From a virus: a stretch of 21,412 nt of DNA. The notes beneath the pieces were generated by a model that saw nothing but the letters and a program-made list of their open reading frames with translations, was not told the DNA's origin and made no database searches. The DNA lies in IMG/VR virus record IMGVR_UViG_3300030382_000762, positions 1 to 21,412 of that record; one strand, written 5' to 3'. The position numbers and the translations under genes were made by a program. Of this stretch, positions 3,211 through 14,070 are shown one piece after another (position 1 is the first letter of the stretch; every line of letters begins with the position of its first letter).

Positions 3211-3557
3211 AAGATTATATATATTTTGGAGGTGTTTTAGTTGCGGTTCTTTCTAGTTGGTTTAAGATTAAACTTGAAACAGAAAAGCAAGAAGAAAAGA
3301 TAATTAATTTAGCTATGACAGTAACAAAGCACGAAAAAGAAATAAAGTCAGTAGAGAAAGAAGCGAGGCAAGGAAGAAACGAGATATATAAAAATTTTGA
3401 AGTAAACCTTAAATCTAATAACGAGGTTTTTTCTAAACAATTTAAAGGCATAGATACAGAAATAAGAGGTTTACAACAGTCTTTTAATGCTATTAATTTA
3501 AGCATTCAAGACTTAACGACTAAAATGGAATTATTAATTAATAAACTAGAATTATAA
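3201..3557 (+). CDS. Membrane-anchored coiled-coil protein (lysis block)
   Basis: The 118-residue protein has one hydrophobic segment at residues about 6-22 (YIYFGGVLVAVLSSWF). A long charged helical region follows (residues 25-118), with heptad-like spacing of Ile, Leu and Val, predicted to be a coiled coil. N-terminal anchor plus coiled coil is a shape seen among phage lysis-cassette accessory proteins (holin regulators, i-spanins, XhlA-like). The gene lies just before a two-span holin candidate and the cell-wall enzyme. No catalytic motif is present. Role in lysis is inferred from context only. Confidence 0.5.
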   Translation: MEIKDYIYFGGVLVAVLSSWFKIKLETEKQEEKIINLAMTVTKHEKEIKSVEKEARQGRNEIYKNFEVNLKSNNEVFSKQFKGIDTEIRGLQQSFNAINLSIQDLTTKMELLINKLEL

Positions 3558-3562
3558 AAAAG

Positions 3563-3778
3563 ATGAAAAAATTTATAAGTGATTTATTTAGAGAGAAAAC
3601 TGGCGGGAAGATTTCAAGTAAGAAATTTTACGGTAATATATTTTTATTACTTTGTGCTATTACTTTTGTAGTTGATGGTTTAAAGTTTTATGATGTATCA
3701 GCAGATTTATTTAACCCAACTTTAGTAGCTGGGTGTACTTTAATAGGGCTTAGAACTATTGGGGGAATGTTTAAATAA
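3563..3778 (+). CDS. Putative holin (two membrane spans)
   Basis: A 71-residue protein with a basic N-terminus (MKKFISDLFREKTGGKISSKKFYG), a first hydrophobic span at residues about 25-41, a short polar turn (FYDVSADLF) and a second span at about 50-66, ending GGMFK. Two spans, small size, a charged N-terminal end and a place directly before the peptidoglycan-acting gene fit a class II holin, which would open the inner membrane at the end of infection. Its TAA overlaps the next ATG (TAATG), so the two genes are translationally coupled. Small two-span proteins have several functions, so the call rests on position. Confidence 0.55.
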   Translation: MKKFISDLFREKTGGKISSKKFYGNIFLLLCAITFVVDGLKFYDVSADLFNPTLVAGCTLIGLRTIGGMFK

Positions 3779-4332
3779 TGAAAGTAAGTTACGATAATAT
3801 ACAACATTTATACGCTAAGAATGGTTATAGATTCTATGACAAAGGGAACTTTAACGTTAATATCTTTGCTATAAGAAGGCAATTAAACACAAATGAATTT
3901 GATGACATTATAGGAATAGCATATAAAAATGATTTTGACTTTGTGGAGATATTTAAAGCAACGACAGACCCTGGCAAATATTGGCTAAAAAAACCTATGA
4001 ATAGAAAAGGAACTGCAATTTTAGTAGAGGGGCAATATAAGTATAAACTAGGATTACACAAAGGAAAAGAAGCATTAGTACAAAAGGGTCCAGTAAAAGT
4101 ATTTAGAGACAACAACAAAGATGAAAACCACGATAAAGGGTACATTCAAGAAGGCTTTTTTGGTATTAACATACATAGAGCTGGAAAAGATTCAAAGCAA
4201 ATTGATAAGTGGTCGGCTGGGTGCCAAGTCTTTGCAGTAGAAAGTCAGTTTCAAAGATTTATAGATATAATTAAAAGAAGTGAAAAGATATACGGCAATA
4301 GCTTTACTTATACTCTTTTTGAGCAGTTGTAG
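3778..4332 (+). CDS. L,D-transpeptidase (YkuD)-like cell-wall enzyme, possible endolysin
   Basis: A 184-residue protein whose C-terminal half carries the pattern GINIHRAG (His133) followed 16 residues later by DKWSAGCQ (Ser146, Gly148, Cys149). This matches the catalytic His / SxGC arrangement of L,D-transpeptidase-fold enzymes. The upstream LGLHKG (residues 91-96) fits an active-site strand of that fold. Cellular family members join meso-diaminopimelate cross-links through the cysteine; a phage enzyme placed after a holin candidate more likely cuts or remodels peptidoglycan during lysis. There is no signal peptide, so export would depend on the holin. Its 3' end overlaps the lipoprotein gene by 53 bases in another frame. 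The fold is fairly secure; lytic use is inferred. Confidence 0.6.
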   Translation: MKVSYDNIQHLYAKNGYRFYDKGNFNVNIFAIRRQLNTNEFDDIIGIAYKNDFDFVEIFKATTDPGKYWLKKPMNRKGTAILVEGQYKYKLGLHKGKEALVQKGPVKVFRDNNKDENHDKGYIQEGFFGINIHRAGKDSKQIDKWSAGCQVFAVESQFQRFIDIIKRSEKIYGNSFTYTLFEQL

Positions 4333-7319: not shown

Positions 7320-7670
7320 ATGAAAACACAAATCAAAACAATCAACATTAAAGGCAAAGATTACATTACTGTAAACGAACGCTTAAAGGCATTTAGAGAG
7401 CTATACAAGAGTTTTAGCCTAACAAGTGAAATAACACACCTAAACGAGAATGGAGTAATTATAAGAGCAAGTATTAAAGATGATAAGGGCGTAGAATTAG
7501 CTTCAGGAATAGCACACGAAGTAAAAGGTTCTAGCTTTATTAACAAGACTTCTTTTATAGAGAACTGCGAGACATCAGCTTGGGGGCGTGCTTTAGGAAA
7601 CTTAGGAATTGGAATTGATGCCTCAGTAGCGAGTGCTGATGAAGTTATTAATGCTATAAACAATCAATAA
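7320..7670 (+). CDS. Single-strand annealing recombinase-like protein (ERF / Rad52-like)
   Basis: A 116-residue protein with the pattern DYITVNERLKAF (residues 14-25), a strand-rich centre and the segment ENCETSAWGRALGNLGIG (81-98). That segment fits the conserved 'E.T.A.GRAL..LGIG' region of phage annealing proteins of the ERF/Sak3/Rad52-like group. These bind single-stranded DNA and pair complementary strands. At 116 residues it is short for the group, so it may be a core-only form. An exonuclease of the type that works with such proteins is encoded about 600 bases downstream (8272). The leader is again ACTAAAAAACAAATAAA. Confidence 0.6.
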   Translation: MKTQIKTINIKGKDYITVNERLKAFRELYKSFSLTSEITHLNENGVIIRASIKDDKGVELASGIAHEVKGSSFINKTSFIENCETSAWGRALGNLGIGIDASVASADEVINAINNQ

Positions 7671-7904: not shown

Positions 7905-8275
7905 AAGCAAGAACAAAACAATACATTAAGAATGTAAAAAACGGCTTTTTAAAAAGCAATAACGAAAAGGTATTACACTGGATCAAACACAACCCTATGA
8001 CTACAGTTTATGAATTAAGACAAACAGGTATAAGCCATCAGACTTTAACAAGTAGAATTTCACACCTTCAAGACTTAGGATTAATTAAAGTTGTAGGAAA
8101 TTGTAATATAGAAGGTAAACATTATTCGCAATACGAAGCAGTCTTAGATTCTGAAATGGTAGAACATTATAGAAACTCTAGAGAACAAGAAAAAGTCCTT
8201 ACGTGGCTTAAAAAAGGTCAAGAATTAAACATTAGAGAAGATTTAAAAGTAGTATTAGAAAATTATATAGTATGA
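7901..8275 (+). CDS. Winged-helix DNA-binding protein
   Basis: A 124-residue protein. Residues about 22-75 form a winged helix-turn-helix: KVLHWIKHNPMTTVYELRQ, then TGISHQTLTSRISHLQDLGLIKVVG, ending in a beta wing. This is the pattern of MarR/ArsR-type and phage regulatory winged helices. The rest (100-124) is a short helical end (EQEKVLTWLKKGQEL). Overlaps of 4 bases with both neighbours place it in the recombination operon. It may act as a regulator or a replication accessory, but its binding site cannot be told from the sequence; the nearby palindrome 8977-8988 is one candidate. Confidence 0.6.
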   Translation: MKARTKQYIKNVKNGFLKSNNEKVLHWIKHNPMTTVYELRQTGISHQTLTSRISHLQDLGLIKVVGNCNIEGKHYSQYEAVLDSEMVEHYRNSREQEKVLTWLKKGQELNIREDLKVVLENYIV

Positions 8276-8955
8276 AAAAGAGATTAAGTTATTCGGCATT
8301 AAGTGCCTTTGGTAAAAGCCCTAATCATTTACTTAGATACTGGAGTAAGAAATTTGAGCCAACATCTGCTATGATGTTAGGAAGTTTAATACATAAAATA
8401 ATTCTAGAGCCTGATGATTTCGATAACGACTACGCAGTATTTGAAGGAACACGAAGGGGCAAAGTCTGGGAGGGTTTTAAAACTGAAAATGAAGGCAAAG
8501 AGTTAGTGACTATAAAAGAATATGACATAGCTAATTATGTAGTTGAGCAATCAAAAAATAATAAGACTTTTATGGACTTATTAATGAGAACAAGCCAAAC
8601 AGAAAAATTAATTACTTGGAAGTCTCAAGGAATAGAATTTAAAGGTTTTGTTGATATGGTAGGAGATACTTTTATAGCTGATATAAAAACAACTGTAGAC
8701 GCTGGAGATAAGTTTCAAAGAGATATAACCTATAATGATTACAAAATGCAAGCAGCTATGTATCTTGAGTGTTTTCCTGATAAAGATTTTTACATTATAG
8801 CAATAGAAAAGTCTGGAGCGTTTAACGTTCAGGTTTATAAATTTAGTAATAGTATGCTTTTACAAGGAAGAAATAAGTATATAAATTTAACAGAAAAGTA
8901 TAAAGAATGGAACGGAGAAAAAGAGAGTTATTATGATGGAATTATTGAGATATAA
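8272..8955 (+). CDS. PD-(D/E)XK phage exonuclease (RecE / DUF3799-like)
   Basis: A 227-residue nuclease. It opens LSYSALSAFGKSPNHL, typical of the family, followed by MLGSLIHKIILEP (His41), FKGFVDMVGD (Asp128), IADIKTT (Asp137, Lys139) and DYKMQAAMYLE (Gln160, Tyr164). These are the His, Asp, D-x-K and QxxxY positions of the RecE/lambda-exonuclease/Cas4-type active site, all intact. Such enzymes degrade one strand of duplex ends, giving single-stranded DNA for the annealing protein encoded at 7320. It starts at a 4-base overlap and is the last gene before the repeat-rich segment. Confidence 0.8.
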   Translation: MKKRLSYSALSAFGKSPNHLLRYWSKKFEPTSAMMLGSLIHKIILEPDDFDNDYAVFEGTRRGKVWEGFKTENEGKELVTIKEYDIANYVVEQSKNNKTFMDLLMRTSQTEKLITWKSQGIEFKGFVDMVGDTFIADIKTTVDAGDKFQRDITYNDYKMQAAMYLECFPDKDFYIIAIEKSGAFNVQVYKFSNSMLLQGRNKYINLTEKYKEWNGEKESYYDGIIEI

Positions 8956-9120: not shown

Positions 9121-9179
9121 AAATAAAATAAGATGAAAGAAAAGATAATGCAATATAAATTTTTTAGAGACAATTTTGA

Positions 9180-9224
9180 GTTCCAAAAGGAACAAGCCTC
9201 AAGCGAACAGGCTTTTAAGTTCGC
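9180..9224 (+). promoter_or_regulatory. Hairpin and H-type pseudoknot in the SSB gene leader
   Basis: A perfect hairpin GTTCC-AAAA-GGAAC (9180-9193) is followed at once by stem AAGCCT (9194-9199) / AGGCTT (9209-9214). The stem's loop word GCGAAC (9203-9208) is perfectly complementary to GTTCGC (9219-9224), giving an H-type pseudoknot with loops CAA and TTAA. A purely A/C stretch (9225-9240) then leads to the ATG at 9241. Position and shape recall the pseudoknot in the T4 gene 32 leader, where SSB represses its own translation. Confidence 0.5.
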
Positions 9225-9240
9225 ACAAAAAAAACAAACA

Positions 9241-9504
9241 ATGGAAAAGAATAAAATTTTCGCAGATGGTTTTATATTTAAAAGACCAGACAACACACCT
9301 GACTTTATAGTAGGTAAAATGAGTGTTAAAGTAGATGAAGCAATAAAATTCTTAAAAACCCATACAAAAAATGGCTGGGTAAATATGGGAATTAAAAGGG
9401 CTAAATCAGGTAAGTTTTATATGGAGTTAGATACTTGGGAGCCTAAACAACAGACAGTAAAAGAAGGTAATGGGTTTGAAGATTCTAATGATTTACCATT
9501 TTAA
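9241..9504 (+). CDS. Single-stranded DNA-binding-like protein
   Basis: An 87-residue protein from ATG 9241: strand-rich, with KIFADGFIFKRPDNTPDFIVG, a helix (DEAIKFLKT) and strands WVNMGIKRAKSGKFYMELDTWEP. It ends in the acidic tail FEDSNDLPF, whose acidic residues and final Pro-Phe are the hallmark of SSB tails that recruit replication and repair partners. An in-frame ATG at 9133 would add 36 residues. I prefer 9241 because it follows an A-rich leader (ACAAAAAAAACAAACA), the core domain starts there, and the extra part coincides with the pseudoknot. It lies between recombination and replication genes. Function is inferred from tail and context; the fold is not proven. Confidence 0.6.
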   Translation: MEKNKIFADGFIFKRPDNTPDFIVGKMSVKVDEAIKFLKTHTKNGWVNMGIKRAKSGKFYMELDTWEPKQQTVKEGNGFEDSNDLPF

Positions 9505-9750: not shown

Positions 9751-10881
9751 ATGAAAAAAATAAAATTAATAATAAAAGAAAAATTAAAAGATTTGAATTT
9801 TGATGAAAAAGTGAATTTTACAAATGAATTAAAATTTTTTTTACACGAAAACAGCCCTTTTAAAAATGAGCCTGTAGATTTTGTAAAATGGGTAAAAAGT
9901 GATGAAATAGTAGCAAACGATTATAATCCAAATAAAGTAGCCCCTCCAGAAATGGAACTTTTGGAAGTTTCTATAATGAATGATGGCTATACGCAACCTA
10001 TAGTTACTTGGAATAATTTTGAAAAAGATAAAATTGAGGTTATTGATGGATTTCATAGAAATAGAGTTGGTAAAGAATCTAAAATTATTAACAAAAGAAT
10101 AAAAGGTTATTTACCTGTTGTAAATATAAGAAAAGAACAGTCAAGCAAAAATGATAGAATAGCTTCAACAATAAGACATAATAGAGCAAGAGGTAAACAT
10201 CAAGTTGATGCAATGAGCGAAATAGTAATAGAATTAAAAAACAGGAATTGGAGTAATAAAAGAATATCTAAACAATTAGGAATGGATGAAGAAGAAGTTT
10301 TAAGACTATGTCAAGTTTCAGGATTAGAGCATTTATTTTCTGATAAAGATTTTAATAGAGCGTGGATTTCAGAAGAATCAAACGAAAATTATATCCCTAC
10401 TCACGATAAATTATTGCCTTTAGAAATTGCTCAATATCGTGCTGGAAACACAAATGACCCTAATAGAATTTTTCATACATTTGATAAGTGGGAGTGCTAT
10501 CCGTCTGGTTTTTATGAAAACTCTATTAAAGATAAAAGTCACGAAGAATGTGAGGCAATTTTTATAGATGTATTAACTAATAAAGTAAGATTTGCTAATG
10601 CTTTAAATGGAGTAATATCTAATTGGAAATATTCTTGTGAACATTATTTAACTAATGTAAGTATGAATAGAATAGCGTGGTTAGGACAAGCGTCTGTTTG
10701 TTATGACAGTGGCGTTCCTTCAAAATATTCAGGTGCTTGGTTTAAAATAGATGAAAAGGAAAGGAAAATAGCTAATGAAATAGCTTTAAAGTATCTAAAT
10801 ATATGGCTGTTAAATAACAAAATGCCAGAAGTTGAAATGAATAGCGCTTTAAATATTGGAAAACAAATAGAATTATATTAA
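9751..10881 (+). CDS. ParB-like nuclease-domain protein (IbrB-like)
   Basis: A 376-residue protein. Residues about 43-150 form a ParB/Srx-type domain: VKSDEIVANDYNPNKV, a helix with SIMNDGYTQPIV, then VIDGFHRNRVG (98-107, the counterpart of the 'GERR' nucleotide-binding box) and IRHNRARGKHQVD (141-153). Residues 165-192 are a helix-turn-helix (NWSNKRISKQLGMDEEEV). The remainder (200-376) is unique to this kind of protein. ParB-fold proteins bind CTP or ATP and DNA. It lies 2 bases before a PP-loop gene; a ParB-like/PP-loop tandem is the layout of the IbrB/IbrA pair, known from E. coli prophage regions as regulators. Its role in a phage is unknown. Confidence 0.65.
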   Translation: MKKIKLIIKEKLKDLNFDEKVNFTNELKFFLHENSPFKNEPVDFVKWVKSDEIVANDYNPNKVAPPEMELLEVSIMNDGYTQPIVTWNNFEKDKIEVIDGFHRNRVGKESKIINKRIKGYLPVVNIRKEQSSKNDRIASTIRHNRARGKHQVDAMSEIVIELKNRNWSNKRISKQLGMDEEEVLRLCQVSGLEHLFSDKDFNRAWISEESNENYIPTHDKLLPLEIAQYRAGNTNDPNRIFHTFDKWECYPSGFYENSIKDKSHEECEAIFIDVLTNKVRFANALNGVISNWKYSCEHYLTNVSMNRIAWLGQASVCYDSGVPSKYSGAWFKIDEKERKIANEIALKYLNIWLLNNKMPEVEMNSALNIGKQIELY

Positions 10882-10883
10882 TT

Positions 10884-12092
10884 ATGAGTAAAAAAAGAGA
10901 ATTAAATATATCAGTTTTGGACGCTTCAAGAAGTAGAATTAGTAGAATTTTTGATGACTTTGAGAGAATTTATATAAGTTTTAGCGGTGGTAAAGATTCA
11001 ACTGTTATGACGCATTTAGTTTTAGATGAAGCGAAAAAAAGAAATAAAAAAGTAGGTTTATTAATTATTGATTTAGAAGCGCAATATAATTCAACAATTG
11101 AACATATAGAAGAAATAATTGAAATGTATTCAGAGCAAATAGAATTACACTGGTTTTGTGGCGAATTGCTTTTGAGAAATGCAGTATCTGATTTTGAGCC
11201 TAAATGGATTTGTTGGGATGAAAGTAAGAAAGATTTATGGGTAAGAAATAAACCTAAATTAGCTAGTGATTTATCTCAATATGATTTTTATGTTCCTAAA
11301 ATGGAATTTGAAGAATTGATGGTTATATTTGGAGAATGGTATTCTCAAGAAAAAAAATGTGCTGCTTTTATAGGTATTCGTTCTGATGAAAGTTTACATA
11401 GATATAGAGCAATAACATCTGAAAAAAAGGGATTAATTCATAAAAATTATAAATGGACTACTAAATTAAATAAAAATTTATATAATGTTTATCCTATTTA
11501 TGATTGGAGAACAGAAGATATTTGGATCTTTCATTTAAAAAACAATCATTTACCTCATAATAAAGTATATGATTTAATGACTAAGGCTGGGGTTAAATTT
11601 GGAGACCAAAGACTTTGCCAACCTTATGGAGATGACCAGAAAAAAGGATTATGGCTTTATCATATTTTAGAACCAATGACTTGGTATAAATTAATAAATA
11701 GAGTAAGCGGTGTTAATTCTGGTGCTTTATATGTTAAAGAACGTGGTAGTATTAATGGAAATACTTTTATTGATAAGCCTAAAAATCATACTTGGCAAAG
11801 TTATACGAATTTTTTATTAAAATCTTTACCTAAAAAAACCCAAAATAATTATAAGCAAAGATTTGAAAAATTTATAGCTGGATGGCTTCAAAGAGGTTAT
11901 AAAACTATACCAGATGAAGCCCCTCATATATTAGAGGTTAAATGTTGGGCTCCTTCTTGGAAACGTATGACAAGATGTATATTAAGAAATGATTATTATT
12001 GTAAAGGTCTTGGACAAACGCAACCTAAATCAGAAGCCTATGAAAAATATAAATCCATAAAACTTAAAAGAAAAATTGAAGCAGAACTTTAA
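10884..12092 (+). CDS. PP-loop (PAPS-reductase-like) protein, IbrA-like
   Basis: A 402-residue protein with an intact PP-loop ATP-pyrophosphatase motif FSGGKDST (33-40). It also has LLIIDLEAQYN (59-69), FIGIRSDESLHR (162-173) and VYPIYDWRTEDIW (202-214), matching the nucleotide- and substrate-binding segments of PAPS reductase relatives. A long C-terminal part (about 240-400) with Cys245, Cys354, Cys365 and Cys373 fits the DUF3440/IbrA group. PP-loop enzymes adenylate a substrate, often for sulfur transfer (tRNA thiolation, DNA phosphorothioation by DndC). It follows the ParB-like gene after 2 bases, so the two are one unit. Chemistry and target here are not known; true PAPS reduction is unlikely in a replication block. 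Confidence 0.7.
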   Translation: MSKKRELNISVLDASRSRISRIFDDFERIYISFSGGKDSTVMTHLVLDEAKKRNKKVGLLIIDLEAQYNSTIEHIEEIIEMYSEQIELHWFCGELLLRNAVSDFEPKWICWDESKKDLWVRNKPKLASDLSQYDFYVPKMEFEELMVIFGEWYSQEKKCAAFIGIRSDESLHRYRAITSEKKGLIHKNYKWTTKLNKNLYNVYPIYDWRTEDIWIFHLKNNHLPHNKVYDLMTKAGVKFGDQRLCQPYGDDQKKGLWLYHILEPMTWYKLINRVSGVNSGALYVKERGSINGNTFIDKPKNHTWQSYTNFLLKSLPKKTQNNYKQRFEKFIAGWLQRGYKTIPDEAPHILEVKCWAPSWKRMTRCILRNDYYCKGLGQTQPKSEAYEKYKSIKLKRKIEAEL

Positions 12093-13122: not shown

Positions 13123-14070
13123 ATGATACTAGAAAAAGGTTATGGACAAGAATATTTATTCGACTTCCACGAGGGTAAGATTAAAAACGGTTTAGGAATA
13201 GGAACAAATCTAGATACAAACTTAGTATTTAAAAAAGGACAGTTTGTGATGATTAATGGCCTTGACAACGTAGGAAAAACAGCTTGGATACTTTGGTATT
13301 ATTTAGTTCTATCTTTAAAATACGATTTAAAGTTTTGCATTTGGAGTGGAGAAAATAGACCAGGACAACAAAAAAGAGACTTAATTCAAATGCTAACAGG
13401 AATGCAATTTAAAAACATTTTTAAAGGAGATATTATAAAACTATTAAACAGAATAGATAATAATTTTATGTTTATAAATAATGCTTTACTTTACAATCAT
13501 AAAGACTTATTAAAAATATTTAAAAACTCTAAAGCTGATGCTTGTTTAATCGACCCATTCACAGGGCTAAACCACGATAGACGAGTTAATCAATTTGAGC
13601 GTAATTATCAAATGTGTAACGATATAAGAGAACACTGCAACAAAACTGGACAAACTATTTATATAAATTCGCACCCTCAGACAGAAGCAGCTAGAAGGGT
13701 TTATCCTCTAGACAACGAACTTGCTGGACACGTGCAGCCTCCAAAAAAGAGCGACACAGAAGGCGGACAAGTTTTTGCCAATAGATGCGATGACTTCATT
13801 ACGATACACAGATTAGTTTCACACCCTGAGCAGTGGACTAAAACACAAATACACGTTAGGAAAGTTAAGGATACGGAGACAGGCGGAACTCCAACTTATT
13901 ACGACCAGCCTATTTTATTTGACTACAATAGAGGTTTAGGTTTTATAAGCGACAAAGATGCCTTAGAAGGTTTAAGAGTAGTTTGTAAAAATGATTTAGA
14001 TGAATTAATGAAAGACCAAAAAGCACCAGAAAATTACTATGATACAGAAAAAAAAGAAGAATGGAAATAA
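13123..14070 (+). CDS. Replicative DNA helicase, DnaB/RecA-type ATPase
   Basis: A 315-residue ATPase. It shows Walker A GLDNVGKT (46-53), a following strand-and-glutamate segment FCIWSGENRP (71-80), Walker B ADACLIDPF (138-146) and a later strand ending in a polar sensor YINSHPQTEAARR (180-192). FITIHRLV and QIHVRKVKD continue the core. This matches the C-terminal ATPase domain of DnaB-like phage helicases, which unwind DNA at the fork as a hexamer; the N-terminal primase-binding domain of DnaB is absent. It overlaps the next gene by 10 bases. A recombinase role (RecA-like) is possible but less likely next to a DUF6291-like gene. Confidence 0.7.
   Translation: MILEKGYGQEYLFDFHEGKIKNGLGIGTNLDTNLVFKKGQFVMINGLDNVGKTAWILWYYLVLSLKYDLKFCIWSGENRPGQQKRDLIQMLTGMQFKNIFKGDIIKLLNRIDNNFMFINNALLYNHKDLLKIFKNSKADACLIDPFTGLNHDRRVNQFERNYQMCNDIREHCNKTGQTIYINSHPQTEAARRVYPLDNELAGHVQPPKKSDTEGGQVFANRCDDFITIHRLVSHPEQWTKTQIHVRKVKDTETGGTPTYYDQPILFDYNRGLGFISDKDALEGLRVVCKNDLDELMKDQKAPENYYDTEKKEEWK

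Follow-up and report, generated by a model that had tools for sequence, protein, structure and literature searches.

The window, i.e. the whole stretch of 21,412 nucleotides that was analysed, stems from an IMG/VR virus record. A gene for a small SSB-like protein lies within it, preceded by a probable leader with a predicted pseudoknot and by two genes of probable recombination functions. The features are as follows:

7320-7670, plus strand: probable relative of Erf/Sak-type annealing proteins (phrog_11717, without a Pfam match)
8272-8955, plus strand: PDDEXK exonuclease (DUF3799, RecE-like), which precedes the leader here and in many relatives
9133-9240, plus strand: in-frame open stretch 5' of 9241, probably leader and not an N-terminal extension
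9180-9193, plus strand: 5' hairpin GTTCC-AAAA-GGAAC, adjoining the pseudoknot, invariant in the four sister leaders and formed in the minimum-energy fold
9194-9199, plus strand: 5' strand of pseudoknot stem S1, AAGCCT, partner of 9209-9214
9200-9202, plus strand: loop L1, CAA, 3 nt (C9200 is T in L022/L023)
9203-9208, plus strand: 5' strand of pseudoknot stem S2, GCGAAC, partner of 9219-9224, invariant in the sisters
9209-9214, plus strand: 3' strand of S1, AGGCTT (C9212 is T in L022/L023, pairing kept)
9215-9218, plus strand: loop L3, TTAA, 4 nt
9219-9224, plus strand: 3' strand of S2, GTTCGC, ending 16 nt 5' of the ATG
9225-9240, plus strand: A/C-only spacer ACAAAAAAAACAAACA with the ribosome-binding region, followed by ATG 9241
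9241-9504, plus strand: SSB-like gene, 87 aa, C-terminal tip DLPF, with ATG 9241 as the most probable start

The hairpin, both stems, the A/C-only stretch and the ATG had been placed by a preliminary description of this DNA, and their coordinates proved exact to the base. Between 8951 and 9123, 5' of the leader, the window is rich in repeats, with three ACTTGTATTT units accompanied by an inverted copy and four GCGTAGTAAA-like units. This stretch is long in the window and in L017, is only about 35 nt long in L002 and L022, and possibly represents iterons or an operator. Further downstream (9751-12092), a ParB-like protein is followed by a PAPS-reductase/DUF3440 protein, a pair that we take to be reminiscent of IbrB/IbrA.

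Homologues of the 87-aa protein were collected in two alignment-based scans, which contributed the best 80 of 270 and the best 80 of 397 relatives, the second scan being anchored on a member of the leader class A described below. Approximately 150 leaders of homologous SSB-like genes were obtained. The family has no match in Pfam or PHROG, and no credible relative was found among solved structures. AlphaFold2 modelled the protein with a mean pLDDT of 58, too weakly to assign the OB fold of an SSB. Two features typical of SSBs were found in the sequences and their surroundings: 118 of the 120 homologues listed end in [LIVMST]-P-[FW], an acidic tip of the bacterial SSB type, and the gene is placed in a recombination/replication operon. 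In L072 and L102, this operon runs from a Sak-type annealing protein (PF06378) via the DUF3799 exonuclease and the SSB to a BT4734-like/DUF5906 protein, with SSAP_Sak taking the place of the 7320-7670 protein. Among named phages, the family was found in one uncultured record only (MW202828), without the pseudoknot. Two loci in metagenome-assembled genomes (MAGs) belong to Bacteroidota (L105, L107) and a third to a MAG labelled Aliivibrio; the two former suggest that the hosts are probably Bacteroidota.

The reading frame of the gene is open from an upstream ATG at 9133 in all four sister leaders. If 9133-9240 were a coding N-terminal extension, the complementarity within it would be a by-product of codons. 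The sisters are too alike for the open frame to mean much, and the extension is absent from all listed homologues outside the four sisters, which start at a Met matching 9241. The 9133 frame also differs among the sisters by one silent and five amino-acid-changing codons, opposite to the SSB core with five silent codons and one altered codon (small numbers in both cases), and the sister changes in the leader keep the base pairs. Conservation of the amino acids from 9133 over the pairs, which the preliminary description had named as the outcome that would speak against a leader structure, was thus not observed. Translation from 9133 is disfavoured by these comparisons, and a coding extension is very improbable.

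The pseudoknot of the window is of the H-type, contains Watson-Crick pairs exclusively and has no L2. It was evaluated by an H-type pseudoknot search with Turner-like stacking and a crude loop penalty on its own scale. The 110-nt window leader scored -18.4, which was equalled by one of 6000 dinucleotide shuffles. Nested folding of the leader gave -14.0 kcal/mol (z -3.5); this fold contains the 5' hairpin and S2 and leaves out S1, the crossing helix. As the same search detected approx. four equally strong sites elsewhere in the 21-kb window (both strands), energy alone is no proof of the leader pseudoknot. The claim is carried by its position and by conservation in the family.

The window leader recurs in four other contigs only, and these sisters are nearly identical. 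Four distinct sequences (window, L002/L016, L017/L021 and L022/L023) differ at a handful of bases. Two of the changes lie inside the pseudoknot, namely C9200T in L1 and C9212T, which converts a G-C into a G-U pair. Leader DNA similarity in named phages was limited to chance matches. The proteins encoded 3' of the shared leader are of two types: the window and L002 encode SSB1, and L021 and L022 encode another SSB-like protein of 80-85 aa (MENKKIYCGSG...DDLPF). The latter protein, located at 3478-3825 (minus strand) in L017 and at 3001-3363 in L022, also ends in DLPF, and its predicted structure was likewise too weak for use. No homology between it and SSB1 was detectable by profile comparison with only two sequences on one side. 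The leader variants are not tied to the protein type and the two are reassorted among the sister phages, a pattern that suggests recombination within the leader. An unchanged leader with a swapped protein is compatible with recognition of its shape by any SSB, or with a reader other than an SSB; for a reader that is one specific SSB, the presence of a shared leader before two non-homologous proteins needs explaining.

Strong pseudoknots were frequent in front of the homologous genes. In the first set, collected from the window's own protein, scores of ≤-18 were reached by 22 of 58 distinct SSB leaders compared to 4 of 347 leaders of other genes at the same loci, and p≤0.005 by 21/58 compared to 6/347. 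With both scans pooled, a strong pseudoknot was present in 53 of 98 distinct leaders (Fisher p 2e-36, a value that overstates independence among related leaders); this fraction is not a prevalence, because the second scan started from a member of class A. The distance to the gene is nearly fixed: a spacing of 16-24 nt between the pseudoknot 3' end and the AUG was found for 85 of 90 significant pseudoknots, but for only 3 of 32 controls, and it is 16 nt in the window. The spacers of the relatives are A-rich with approx. 2% G, and UUAAA occurs in 32-62% of classes A and B. From -16 to +30, these SSB mRNAs are slightly more structured than controls, not less.

No pseudoknot was found in 32 of the 120 rows. 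Among such homologues are twelve with a 1-nt overlap with the annealing-protein gene and six with a short leader; by eye, at least five of the six short leaders contain promoter-like sequence. A Bacteroidota-type promoter (TTTG, ~20 nt, TAnnTTTG) lies in the last 70 nt before the SSB start in L003, L010, L085, L093 and L105, which have no pseudoknot. In all of these except L010, it is overlapped by a varying inverted repeat (GGGAC/GTCCC, GGAAC/GTTCC, GAGAC/GTCTC) that is possibly a DNA operator. A promoter reading of window positions 9171-9178 (CAATTTTG; TAATTTTG in L002 and L021) was rejected, since no matching -33 element was visible by eye. Other elements were seen near the leaders. tRNA-like genes end just 5' of the pseudoknot in L060 (2811-2904), L121 (1089-1175), L129 (2830-2920) and L173 (2842-2915), and T-arm-like words occupy that place in 14 loci; cleavage at the 3' end of the tRNA could make the pseudoknot the 5' terminus of the SSB mRNA. 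A hairpin GTGTCTTyrAAGACAC is located 5' of or at the leader, up to 160 nt before the SSB start, in L110, L126, L128, L138, L157 and 17 other loci.

The pseudoknots fall into several architectures. Class A comprises 51 of 120 distinct proteins and is characterised by an S1 of 8-12 bp, an S2 of 7 bp, an A-rich spacer and the conserved loop words YUYA, RGG and, before the S2 3' strand, AAYAGA. When 44 class A leaders were aligned by sequence only, changes on both sides were found in 19 of 19 pairs, and S2 was 100% paired. Altogether, 182 cells were changed on both sides compared to 52 in shuffles, and the covariation was 0.683, compared to 0.260 in shuffled alignments and at most 0.21 with the partners slid. 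As pairing had helped to choose the class A rows, the selection was repeated by the loop motif alone; a 7-bp partner was then present in 44 of 46 leaders, with 4.2 expected. The class B pseudoknots (25) overlap a short reading frame located 5' of the gene. This class had 50 cells changed on both sides vs 18, and a covariation of 0.372 vs 0.179. Its S1 covaries strongly and its S2 varies little, which is partly due to the use of GTTCC/TGGARC as the selection word. Class C (5 distinct) is compact and shows two compensatory changes in S2. Individual pseudoknots of their own were found in L013, L063, L097 and L106. In L015 and L098, the pseudoknot is embedded in the annealing-protein gene, at its coding end and ~40-75 nt 5' of the SSB gene; it combines AGGCGG/CCGCCT with GTACTCA/TGAGTAC, occurs in a covarying variant as well and is 37 nt away from the SSB start. 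The window leader is a compact form on a long tree branch, which is not class A by sequence and whose nearest kin outside the sisters is uncertain. Compensatory changes in related leaders, which the preliminary description had proposed as a check, were thus obtained for class A, for S1 of class B and, in two instances, for S2 of class C; the window's own stems showed none among four near-identical leaders, too few to establish covariation there.

In all class A loci, the covariance model of this class matched at the SSB leader. When applied to 32 whole phage records, it gave one strong match per record, at the SSB leader, and the sole other match was marginal (E=0.08). The only strong extra copy was a second class A pseudoknot in L129 (2672-2750), which precedes a reading frame of 13 codons and may be an orphan leader that stayed behind when a gene was lost. 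A match at 13318-13392 of the window (E 0.02) is situated within a coding gene and was taken as chance. Among 295 genomes from the class to which a Sphingobacteriales MAG belongs, the model matched none, an uninformative outcome.

Pairs in S1 of class A comprised 109 G-U but only 9 A-C cells, so it is the mRNA-sense strand that folds. This weighs against an element acting as folded single-stranded DNA, for example in loading SSB or primase. Such a role would suit the location in a replication/recombination region beside the SSB gene and has a precedent in STAXI, for whose pseudoknots action as folded ssDNA was considered (PMC2864571). The spacing tied to the start codon and the single, non-tandem copy argue against it too, and we regard it as hardly likely. 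From the sequence comparisons, class A is almost certainly a cis-regulatory RNA of some kind, and the same is highly likely for the leader of the window. Judging from the spacing to the AUG, the pseudoknot, which is conserved although it evolves fast, very probably acts on translation.

The question is then what reads it. Conserved loop words could be the recognition bases of another trans factor that adjusts the SSB level, either an RNA-binding protein of host or phage origin or, in the case of a riboswitch, a small molecule. These words are, however, not common to classes A, B, C and the window, there is one target gene per phage, and no Rfam covariance model, and hence no riboswitch, matched at the leader even with lax thresholds; this alternative appears improbable. 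Somewhat better placed, but still unlikely, is a cis element for translation or stability that works without SSB by keeping the ribosome-loading region open, by providing a standby site or by shielding a processed mRNA 5' end. The fixed distance to the AUG and the G-poor spacer fit such an element, and one leader before two different SSB-like proteins agrees with reading by a factor distinct from the protein. It would, however, be expected before other abundant phage proteins, whereas whole phage records have class A at the SSB gene alone and few control genes are preceded by a strong pseudoknot.

The gene specificity and the precedent of T4 and RB69 point instead to autogenous repression by the SSB in the manner of gp32, to which we assign a probability of roughly 0.55. 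The H-type pseudoknot ends about 20 nt 5' of the start codon, with the ribosome-binding region held by the A-rich, G-poor spacer. As long as single-stranded DNA is plentiful, it would titrate the SSB and the SSB mRNA would be translated. Excess SSB would dock on the pseudoknot, spread along the adjacent single-stranded spacer and block the ribosome. Selection would maintain shape and AUG spacing, not the sequence. More tentatively, and at somewhat less than even odds, a large group of uncultured phages may keep an SSB operator in this way, in several unrelated architectures, some of which overlap upstream coding sequence, as a shape-recognised module swapped between non-homologous SSB-like proteins.

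Leader pseudoknots of SSB genes are already known as a kind; what is new here is the protein family together with the sequences, architectures and spacing of the RNA. No published description of these leader pseudoknots was found in a search of mostly open-access literature. Autogenous control of an SSB through a pseudoknot is a textbook case, for which descriptions were found from T4-like phages only. Gene 32 of T4, T2 and RB69 has an autogenous translational operator consisting of an H-type leader pseudoknot followed by A-rich RNA of low structure over the ribosome-binding site; relatives retain its function despite divergent sequences, and some, such as RB49, lack the pseudoknot (PMC535899, PMC3014915). 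The phage SSB leaders described here likewise contain an H-type pseudoknot followed by an A-rich spacer, diverge in sequence and include relatives without a pseudoknot. They differ in that the gap between pseudoknot and AUG is 16-24 nt, compared to ~40 nt in T4, and in that they have no counterpart of the unstructured, A+U-rich stretch with UUAAA repeats (>40 nt) 3' of the T4 pseudoknot. The RNA sequences are different and of several architectures, the phages probably infect Bacteroidota, and the SSB-like protein (~90 aa, with the bacterial-SSB-type DLPF tip) is not detectably related to gp32. Binding of the leader by the SSB-like protein is putative. Of the preliminary interpretation, a conserved leader pseudoknot at an SSB-like gene unrelated to gp32 is upheld by covariation, fixed AUG spacing and one copy per phage (two in L129); the resemblance to T4 is one of logic only. 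Gene 43 of T4 and RB69 is another case of autogenous translational control of a replication protein via leader structure (PMC3014915), with a hairpin operator and a polymerase in place of a pseudoknot and an SSB. STAXI (RF01728), a tandem array of two or three pseudoknot units in Enterobacteriales, is often found near Ssb and other DNA-handling genes (PMC2864571). The pseudoknots of the present family share the proximity to Ssb, but are single, keep a fixed distance to the AUG and have no Rfam match.

The leaders thus constitute an independent, apparently widespread set of SSB-leader pseudoknots in a protein family unnamed in databases. The choice of its own mRNA by the SSB has been called unclear in the T4 literature (PMC535899), and natural variants, including two proteins behind one leader, bear on how a sequence-blind ssDNA-binding protein makes it. 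If true, a shape-read, module-swapped SSB operator would represent convergence with the gp32 control of T4.
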